Source of the DNA: an uncultured Pelagibacteraceae bacterium
Lineage (GTDB): Bacteria; Pseudomonadota; Alphaproteobacteria; Pelagibacterales; Pelagibacteraceae
Assembly (NCBI GenBank): GCA_902623975.1
Contig: CACNVR010000002.1
Location: forward strand, 1 to 64,000
Direction of reading: 5' to 3'
DNA length: 64,000 bases
Numbering within the stretch: position 1 is the stretch's first letter; the number at the start of each line of letters is the position of its first letter. Under the pieces are notes generated by a model that made no database searches, was not told where the DNA came from, and saw nothing but the letters and a program-made list of their open reading frames with translations. Below, piece by piece: positions 9,891 through 52,701 of this stretch. A program made the translations under genes and the position numbers.

Positions 9891-10960
9891 CTTTTATTAA
9901 TAAGGAATTTTTGTCTCAAATTATCTATTGGCACAAAAGAATTACCTAATTTGTAATGCCAAAAAGTCCATCCATTGCAACTTTCAGCACCTAAGATTGT
10001 AGCCGCTACTTTGTGGATTGAGCCTTCAGTTTGTGCATGCTTAATACTGCCATCAGCCATAATTTTTGCACTGATTTTCTTTTTATTATCAAAAATAGTC
10101 GTACCTGGTTTAATTATTCCTAATTCAACCAATGACCCAAACGGTATTCTTGGTTTGGATCTACCATTTTGTAAAGTATCCAAATAATCATTCTCTATAG
10201 GTTTTGTTTTTCTTAATCTTTGTTCGGCAGCTTTAAAATATGTTATTTCTCTTTCAATGCCATAGTAAATTCTTCCTAATTTTTTAGCAACTGTAGCTGT
10301 TGTTCCGGATCCTAAAAAGGGATCTAAAACTAAATCATTTTTATTTGAAGTCGCTAATAAAATTCTGTGAAGAAGAGCTTCTGGTTTTTGTGTGGAATGC
10401 ACCTTTTTACCATTATTTTTTAATCTTTCAGAACCATTACAAATTGGTAATTCCCAATTAGATCTCATTTGAAGATCGTCATTCAAACACTTTAAGGATT
10501 GATAATTAAAAGTGTATTTTGATTTTTCAGATTTAGATGCCCAAATTAATGTTTCATGAGCATTTGTAAAACGTGTTCCTCTAAAATTAGGCATCGGATT
10601 TTTTTTGTTCCAAATGACATCATTTAAAATCCAAAAACCCAAATTTTGAATTGCTGTACCAACTCTAAAAATATTGTGGTAACTACCAATTACCCAAATA
10701 GCTCCATTTTTTTTTAAAATTCTTTTACATTCACTCAACCATTGATAAGTAAAGTCATCATACTTTTTAAAATTTTCAAATTGATCCCATTTATCGTTTA
10801 CTGCATTTACTTTAGTTCTATCAGGTCTTGTTAATTCACTTTTAAGTTGTAGATTGTAAGGGGGATCAGCAAAAATTAAATCAAAACTTTCATTAGGAAT
10901 TTTTTTGAGCTCCTTTAAACTATCTCCATTTATTAATTTATTTTTTAAATTAGATTTCAT
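9881..10960 (-). CDS. ccrM: Adenine-specific DNA methyltransferase, CcrM-type (expected GANTC)
   Basis: ADPPYNLQL (DPPY), [16 protein letters not shown], plus C-terminal domain ([14 protein letters not shown]...[23 protein letters not shown]) characteristic of CcrM. Confidence 0.93.
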
Positions 10961-10973
10961 TTCGTAAAACTAA

Positions 10974-11002
10974 ATTAGACTCTAAAAAGATTCTTGGGTC
11001 AA
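10974..11002 (-). promoter_or_regulatory. Predicted sigma70-type promoter of ccrM with two embedded GANTC sites
   Basis: Reverse strand: TTGACC (11002-10997), 17 nt, TCTAAT (10979-10974). GANTC at 10989-10993 (spacer) and 10978-10982 (overlaps -10). Confidence 0.6.
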
Positions 11003-11079
11003 CCTACGATTGAATTATTTGAATTTAAATTGTATAGGTACTTTTTGATATAACAACATGTAGTGTTTCTACGTGAAAC

Positions 11080-47974: not shown

Positions 47975-49801
47975 GTGGAAAGAATAATTACAAAATCATT
48001 TGCAAGATTAATGGGTCGAGGTACCCACCGAGGTTTTATAACATACGAAGAGTTAAATAAATCACTAGGTAAAAGAAATCTTTCAGATGAAAATTTAGCT
48101 CAGGCTTTTATCCATATTTTAGATGAAAATATAACATTAGTTGAAAAAAAATCCGATTATAAAGTTTTAAGAAAAAAAGAAAGTAGTTCAAAAGAAGAAG
48201 GAAAGACAATAGAAAAAAGTGATGATCCAATTAGAATGTATCTTAGAGAAATGGGCGGAGTTGAGCTTCTTTCAAGAGAAGGTGAAATTGCAATAGCTAA
48301 AAGAATTGAAGCTGGAAAAGATGTTATGCTTATTGCTCTTTCACAAAGTCCTATTACAGCCCAACAATTTTTTGATTGGGATGAAAAATTACAAAAAGAT
48401 GAAATTTTGGTCAGAGAGATTATAGATATAGACACAAACTATATGGAAGATGAGTCTACAGGACCAAGTGCAAAACAAAAAAATTCTGGTGAAGCTGAAA
48501 AAGAGGAGAACTCGAGTGATGATAGTGATGATGATTTTAATCCAACACTTGCTGCAATGGAGTCTGAAATCAAACCAAAAGTACTTAAAACTGTAAACTT
48601 GCTTACTAAAGAATATATTAAATTAATTAAATACCAAAATGAAAAATTGAAGTGTGTTTTGAATTCTGAAACGTTTTCTACAGCAAAGGAAAAAAGTTAT
48701 GAAAAAATTGTTAACAGCATATTAGAAAATATTAAATCTTTGCAATTATCACCTTCTGTTTTAGAAGAATTGGTACAAAAACATTATGTTGAAAATAAAA
48801 AAATTATTTCTCTAGAGGGCAATTTGCTCAGATTAGCAATGGATCATAAGATACCTCGAAATGAATTTATCAAATTTTATATCGGCAATGAAATAAATCC
48901 TAACCTGAAAAAGTTTTTAGATACAAATTCGGTATGGAAACAATTTTTTTCAAAAAACAAAAATGAATTTAAGAATATAAGAGAGAGATTAATTGAGATT
49001 AGTAATAAGCTAGGAATTTCAGTAACAGACTTTAAAAAATTGGTAAGTAGAATTCAAAAAGGTGAAAAAGAGTCAAGAATCGCAAAAAAAGAGATGGTAG
49101 AAGCGAATTTAAGATTGGTAATTTCTATAGCAAAAAAATATACAAACAGAGGGTTACAGTTTTTAGACCTTATACAAGAGGGAAATATAGGCTTAATGAA
49201 AGCAGTGGATAAATTCGAGTACAGAAGAGGTTATAAATTTTCCACTTATGCTACTTGGTGGATTAGACAAGCAATTACTAGATCAATAGCTGATCAAGCA
49301 AGAACGATAAGAATACCTGTTCATATGATAGAAACAATAAATAAAATTGTGAGAACTCAAAGATTAATTTTAAGCGAATATGGCAGGGAAGCAACTCCAG
49401 AGGAGTTAGCAAAAAAACTGAGAATGCCACTTGATAAAGTAAGAAAAGTTTTAAAAATTTCAAAAGAACCGGTTTCTTTAGAAAAACCAGTGGGTGACGA
49501 AGAGGACAGTAGTTTGGGAGATTTTATAGAAGATACAAAAGCGCTTGCTCCTTTAGAACAAGCTATCAAATCTAATCTAGGTGAAGCGACAACAAAAATT
49601 TTATCAACTTTAACTCCAAGAGAAGAAAGAGTTTTGAGAATGCGATTTGGTGTGGGTATGAATACAGACCATACTTTAGAAGAAGTTGGATTGCAGTTTT
49701 CGGTGACTCGAGAAAGAATTAGACAAATAGAGGCCAAAGCTCTTAGAAAATTAAAACATCCGAGCAGATCAAAACAATTAAAAAGTTTCTTGGAGAGTTA
49801 A
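47975..49801 (+). CDS. rpoD: RNA polymerase sigma factor RpoD (GTG start)
   Basis: [86 protein letters not shown]; region 4 [14 protein letters not shown]. Confidence 0.98.
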
Positions 49802-49807
49802 AACTTT

Positions 49808-49882
49808 GGGCCGTTAGCTCAATAGTAGAGTACTGCATTGACATTGCAGGGGTAGTTGGAGCGTAACCAACACGGCCCACCA
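49808..49882 (+). tRNA. tRNA-Val (GAC), CCA encoded, atypical T-loop (AGCGTAA) and D-loop (AATAGTA)
   Basis: GGGCCGT/ACGGCCC acceptor; GCTC/GAGT D-stem; CTGCA-TTGACAT-TGCAG anticodon arm; GTTGG-AGCGTAA-CCAAC T-arm; ACCA 3' end. Confidence 0.88.
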
Positions 49883-49937
49883 TTGAAATCTCTTTAATTG
49901 ATAACTGATCAAAAATGTTATAACACATTAGTAATTT

Positions 49938-50014
49938 GGGCCTGTAGCTCAGTTGGTTAGAGCAGTACACTCATAATGTATTGGTCCCAGGTTCGAGTCC
50001 TGGCGGGCCCACCA
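49938..50014 (+). tRNA. tRNA with CAT anticodon (elongator Met likely), CCA encoded
   Basis: GGGCCTG/CGGGCCC acceptor; GTACA-CTCATAA-TGTAT anticodon arm; GGTTCGAGTCC T-arm; ACCA. Met versus Ile2 not decided experimentally. Confidence 0.93.
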
Positions 50015-52256: not shown

Positions 52257-52617
52257 TGTTGCCAGATAAATGACTTATCGCTTTAAAAAATTTTAAAGAG
52301 GAAAGTCCGGGCTCTACAAGGATACAGTGCCAGGTAATACCTGGCGGGGGAAACCCTAGGGATAGTGCCACAGAAAATAAACCGCCATAACATGGCAAGG
52401 GTGAAAAGGTGTGGTAAGAGCACACCGGTTCTATTGGTAACAATGAACGCTGGAAAACCCCACTGGGAGCAAGACTAAGTAGAGATGACATTGTTGAAAA
52501 ACTAAAAGCCATCCTTGGCTAGTCATCAGGGTTAGTTGCTTGAGCTTAAAAGTGATTTTAAGCCTAGACAAATGATAAGTTTAAATGACAGAACCCGGCT
52601 TATAGTTTATCTGGCCA
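52257..52617 (+). ncRNA. rnpB: RNase P RNA, bacterial type A
   Basis: Conserved GAGGAAAGTCCGGGCT, ACAGAAAATAAACCGCC, GGGTGAAAAGGTGTGGTAAGAGCACACC; 5' GCCAGATAAA pairs with 3' TTTATCTGGC. Ends approximate. Confidence 0.96.
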
Positions 52618-52701
52618 TCTTCTAAATTTTCAATTTAAATGTTCTCGTTTTGATTCATTTTCATGATTAAAACGACCCAATTAAATTATAAATTGTATGT
52701 A

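Follow-up and report, generated by a model that had tools for sequence, protein, structure and literature searches.

Few tRNA positions are as strongly conserved as 18, 54, 55 and 58, and the elbow that they form is recognised by RNase P, by the ribosome and by many enzymes. Pseudouridine-55 is made by the enzyme TruB. Departures in both the D- and T-loop are found in the staphylococcal peptidoglycan tRNA-Gly isoacceptors, which serve cell-wall synthesis. In the elbow, residue 18 inserts into the T-loop and bonds residue 55, while 19 pairs with 56 and 54 with 58 (PMC4810234, PMC7912444). Alternative tertiary pairs that occur as sets, A54/A58 and R15/A48, are described for eukaryotic tRNA-Ala(AGC) and initiator tRNA and are stated to be absent from bacteria and archaea (PMC7566577). 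Loss of TruB is known in some Mollicutes (PMC4014445). A literature search of partial coverage turned up neither a description of A18/G55 elbows nor one of TruB loss in SAR11, so that an earlier description is possible; the terms G18, A18, U55 and T-loop do not occur in a paper on SAR11 tRNA signatures.

The window, a stretch of 64,000 nucleotides from a genome of the SAR11 order (G000; 1.03 Mb, 85% complete), carries a tRNA-Val(GAC) gene whose elbow is built from other bases. The features to which we refer are the following.

47975 to 49801, + strand: upstream gene for a sigma-70 type factor (ORF list)
49808 to 49882, + strand: tRNA-Val(GAC) gene with rewired elbow and encoded CCA (ARAGORN, RF00005, orthologues with compensated stems)
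49821 to 49827, + strand: D-loop AATAGTA, read as A14 A15 T(16/17) A18 G19 T20 A21 (sequence)
49823 to 49823, + strand: base 16/17 of the D-loop (T), which may pair with base 59 (T-A in 18 sequences, A-T in 3)
49824, + strand: A18 of tRNA-Val(GAC) (sequence; A18 always occurs with G55)
49840 to 49842, + strand: anticodon GAC (ARAGORN)
49860 to 49866, + strand: T-loop AGCGTAA, read as A54 G55 C56 G57 T58 A59 A60 (sequence)
49938 to 50014, + strand: CAT tRNA, called Met, next to tRNA-Val; its elbow is canonical (ARAGORN, RF00005)

The tRNA-Val gene starts 6 bases past the stop of the upstream gene, which we take to be rpoD-like from its sequence and established knowledge; this spacing makes co-transcription of the two likely. 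Downstream, 55 bases separate tRNA-Val from the CAT tRNA in the window (49882-49938); in several relatives (L025, L030, L036) this gap holds variable genes, judged by eye to be a large ORF to which no function was assigned, a phosphoglycerate-mutase-like ORF and DNA cytosine methyltransferases; the gap resembles an insertion hotspot. At both ends the CAT tRNA is like tRNA-Ile(GAT) of the same genome, and it may be a tRNA-Ile(CAU); the genome has two other CAT tRNAs. The window also contains a full-length bacterial RNase P RNA of class A (52262-52618, 292 bits, 2.4 kb from tRNA-Val) and, at 10957-11026 on the minus strand, a match to the Rfam bablM sRNA family (66.8 bits).

ARAGORN and Rfam RF00005 each call tRNA-Val with anticodon GAC, and the two loops read exactly as an earlier note on this DNA had given them. 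The cloverleaf is complete, with stems of 7, 4, 5 and 5 bp, a GGGTA variable loop, a GTTGG/CCAAC T-stem and an encoded CCA. The gene is like a canonical bacterial tRNA-Val(GAC) in its cloverleaf, anticodon, stems, CCA and G19-C56, but differs from it in A18/G55, A54-T58, the co-change of 16/17 with 59, and A60; among the canonical elbow contacts only G19-C56 is retained. The RF00005 score, which the earlier note had proposed to compare, is 53.6 bits; the window's two other tRNAs score 72.7 and 61.2. The combined A18/G55 elbow pattern matches once in the window and not at all in 100 shuffles of it.

We propose that this gene very probably encodes a working elongator tRNA-Val(GAC) whose elbow rests on an alternative set of contacts that would need neither m5U54 nor pseudouridine-55. 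The 75 bases of the gene recur without a change in 20 other sampled genomes of the same genus, which rules out a read or assembly error, and genera g3, g4, g10 and g12 have diverged copies. Across the seven distinct orthologues all 24 tested stem pairs are formed in every case (100% of cells paired, against 34-48% for slid-partner controls), 13 of the 24 have changed on both sides, and the unpaired stem changes expected of a pseudogene are not seen. The odd loop bases persist through these compensated stem changes in other genera. Canonical tRNA-Val(GAC) genes, with GG at 18-19 and TTC at 54-56, were found in same-genus genomes G105 and G109 and in a genome of genus g6 (G046); since canonical and rewired orthologues both occur, both states exist, and the bases switch as a set. 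The earlier note had treated canonical loops in close relatives, or a second and normal GAC gene, as grounds for doubt: most same-genus orthologues share the loops, G105 and G109 being canonical, and the complete relative G003 has no second tRNA-Val(GAC), its other valine tRNA being a canonical TAC isoacceptor. Neither ground overturned the note's reading. Matches at 74% identity in genus g2 proved to be tRNA-Lys and were rejected as orthologues.

The co-variation of positions 18 and 55 that the earlier note had suspected is strongly supported by a sample of 211 tRNAs from seven SAR11-order genomes. G18/U55 occurs in 200 of them, A18/G55 unambiguously in nine, and two Phe tRNAs are read as A18/G55; no further combination was seen in the sample. 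The D-loop register of these two Phe tRNAs, from the window's genus (AGGAGTA), is ambiguous, and the automated count gave G18/G55; we read them as A18 because a relative in G018, with AGTAGTA and TGCGATT, reads A18. With the two Phe tRNAs dependent on register, A18 and G55 occur together in five tRNA species and never with U55 or G18; in canonical orthologues G18 stands with U55. A search of 198 genomes, with patterns that require GTA at the end of the D-loop and GG/CC closing the T-stem, found no A18 combined with a canonical T-loop; GG at 18-19 with G55 gave three matches, none of which is a tRNA.

Positions 54 and 58 are T-A in 205 of the 211 tRNAs and A-T in 6. Two forms of the elbow can be told apart. 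In the full form, represented by 21 distinct sequences of tRNA-Val, tRNA-His and tRNA-Thr, A54 and T58 are joined by invariant A15 and A60, and bases 16/17 and 59 are T-A in 18 sequences, A-T in 3 and unpaired in none, which suggests an extra base pair between the D- and T-loops. In the partial form (Phe, Tyr and the His of G009), only 18 and 55 are altered and T54-A58 is retained, so the 54/58 swap is separable from the 18/55 exchange. The swap reported in the earlier note is supported as a fixed feature of one subtype; A18/G55 does not depend on it, given that Phe, Tyr and one His keep T54-A58. A GNRNA-pentaloop fold of the T-loop was dropped, because base 59 can be T.

In the elbow that we propose, G19-C56 is unchanged and would still present the flat face that RNase P and the ribosome make use of. 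G18 and pseudouridine-55 would give way to A18 and G55, which probably form a purine-purine pair in which A18 is intercalated in the T-loop. In the full form, A54-U58 would replace T54-A58 and, together with a 16/17-59 pair (U-A or A-U), would close the loop. It is the co-occurrence of the bases that leads us to infer A18-G55 and A54-U58 pairing, with the putative geometry given here. Both m5U54 and pseudouridine-55 would then be dispensable for folding; that m5U54 should be missing from tRNA-Val, as previously predicted, follows from residue 54 being A. A natural, repeated and compensated replacement of this kind points to the parts of the elbow that are truly required, namely G19-C56, a purine at 18 and a purine at 57.

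A close parallel is eukaryotic tRNA-Ala(AGC), which likewise has co-occurring alternative tertiary pairs and purines at 54 and 60, and whose R15/A48 may be compared with the A15 and A48 of the window's tRNA-Val (PMC7566577). It differs from the window's tRNA, in which residue 58 is U rather than A and 18/55 is altered; the eukaryotic A54/A58 type does not occur among the full-form sequences, 21 of 21 of which have T at 58. Eukaryotic initiator tRNA shares A54 and A60 but keeps A58, U55 and G18, and is an initiator, whereas the tRNA described here is an elongator.

The departure is not gene-specific, contrary to what the earlier note had concluded from the canonical CAT neighbour. In the same genome, tRNA-His(GTG) has loops identical to those of tRNA-Val (AATAGTA/AGCGTAA), and tRNA-Phe(GAA) shares A18/G55, with T-loop TGCGAAT and D-loop AGGAGTA. 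The complete genome G003 has 32 intact tRNAs, of which 29 are canonical, and the exceptions are again Val(GAC), His and Phe; because these His and Phe tRNAs are the sole tRNAs for their amino acids, the A18/G55 elbow must function in translation. The AGCGTAA T-loop is present in His and Thr tRNAs within the order. Beyond Val, His and Phe of G000 and G003, A18/G55 is carried by Phe in G018, by Val and a Tyr with a long variable arm in G040, by a His with another loop (TGCAACT) in G009, and by Thr(GGT) in G146 of sister family f2, where Thr(GGT) is rewired whereas Val, His and Phe are canonical. Because the carriers differ in tRNA species and in lineage, at least five origins of A18/G55 are likely, unless the loops were copied between genes; the same elbow would then have arisen several times in the SAR11 order, in full form (Val, His, Thr) and in partial form (Phe, Tyr, another His). 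The full-form T-arm pattern matched in 212 of 298 genomes of the order, and the reversed pattern in none. Outside the order, the combined elbow pattern matched no tRNA in 381 alphaproteobacterial genomes and recovered three positive controls, in a search confined to Alphaproteobacteria and to D-arms other than the His type. There is a practical point here as well: ARAGORN overlooks the tRNA-His and tRNA-Thr of the rewired type.

By its conservation, and by analogy with the sole-isoacceptor His and Phe tRNAs, tRNA-Val(GAC) would be aminoacylated with valine and serve on the ribosome. It reads GUU and GUC, and because GTT and GTC make up 93 of the 180 valine codons in six ORFs of the window, its decoding load is probably large. 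The TAC isoacceptor could also read valine codons, so the Val copy may not be essential by itself.

Two independent profiles, TIGR00431 and PF01509, detected no TruB in genera g2, g3, g4 and g10 or in the window's genus, where single-contig genomes of at least 99% completeness were among those searched; it was found in g5, g9, g12 and family f2. In 53 marine Pelagibacteraceae loci (named records, L170-L249) the order is infB-rbfA-rpsO-pnp with no truB, while 12 Fonsibacter-type loci retain rbfA-truB-rpsO; the missing truB of marine Pelagibacteraceae is a clean loss and not an annotation gap. The earlier prediction that this tRNA is not a substrate of TruB is moot, since the genus is without TruB altogether.

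We tentatively suggest that the repeated evolution of a modification-independent A18-G55 and 16/17-59 elbow may have let SAR11 drop pseudouridine-55 and the near-universal TruB; rewired elbows would have eased or followed the loss. It is also conceivable, although unlikely, that TruB was lost first and that position 55, freed without pseudouridine-55, then drifted to G55 together with A18. The window's genus is indeed one of several from which TruB is missing, and three rewired tRNAs occur in each of two genomes that have no TruB, G000 and G003; yet f2 (Thr), G009 (His) and G040 (Val, Tyr) have TruB together with rewired tRNAs, so TruB loss is no precondition for rewiring. A simple story in which TruB loss caused the rewiring is weakened by these lineages, and the link between the two is loose. 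Mollicutes without TruB are alike in having small genomes that miss the pseudouridine-55 enzyme, but differ in that the available part of the source describes no 18/55 exchange (PMC4014445). In a group that is among the ocean's most abundant bacteria, rewired elbows provide a natural experiment on the purpose of pseudouridine-55 and TruB.

We consider it rather improbable that the loops spread among tRNA genes by gene conversion or integrating elements instead of by repeated mutation. Identical loops in Val, His and Thr, the variable island after tRNA-Val and a 56-base copy of the 3' portion of this tRNA elsewhere in G051 would all fit such a spread. Against it, different stems and anticodons separate the D-loop from the T-loop, partial forms occur, and the tRNA-Val sequence matched no phage or viral contig. 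The copy in G051 (L052, G051:C1:397210-397265) is exact, and the island around it includes a possible glycosyltransferase; the copy is perhaps a relic of element integration.

A specialised role outside translation, in which the tRNA is kept from EF-Tu or the ribosome, is very improbable: the altered D- and T-loops do resemble those of staphylococcal tRNA-Gly, but that tRNA serves the cell wall, whereas the sole His and Phe tRNAs with the A18/G55 elbow must serve translation, and tRNA-Val retains its GAC anticodon and stems, with no candidate gene for a user of aminoacyl-tRNA seen next to it. That the gene is a decaying pseudogene, tolerated because the canonical tRNA-Val(TAC) reads every valine codon, is least credible and largely refuted, for the lower RF00005 score is set against identity in 20 other sampled same-genus genomes, stem changes solely as compensated pairs and a sole tRNA-His with the same loops.

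Two further observations concern the carriers themselves. The AGCGTAA-loop tRNA-His of G000 (G000:C1:178810-178880, L010) and of G003 (L117) shows no extra G-1 by sequence, and has G1 opposite T72, followed by A73. All five A18/G55 tRNA species have G34 (GAC, GTG, GAA, GTA and GGT, in G000, G003, G009, G018, G040 and G146); G34 occurs in 14 of 32 tRNA species, which for all five gives P of about 0.01 for what is a post hoc observation.
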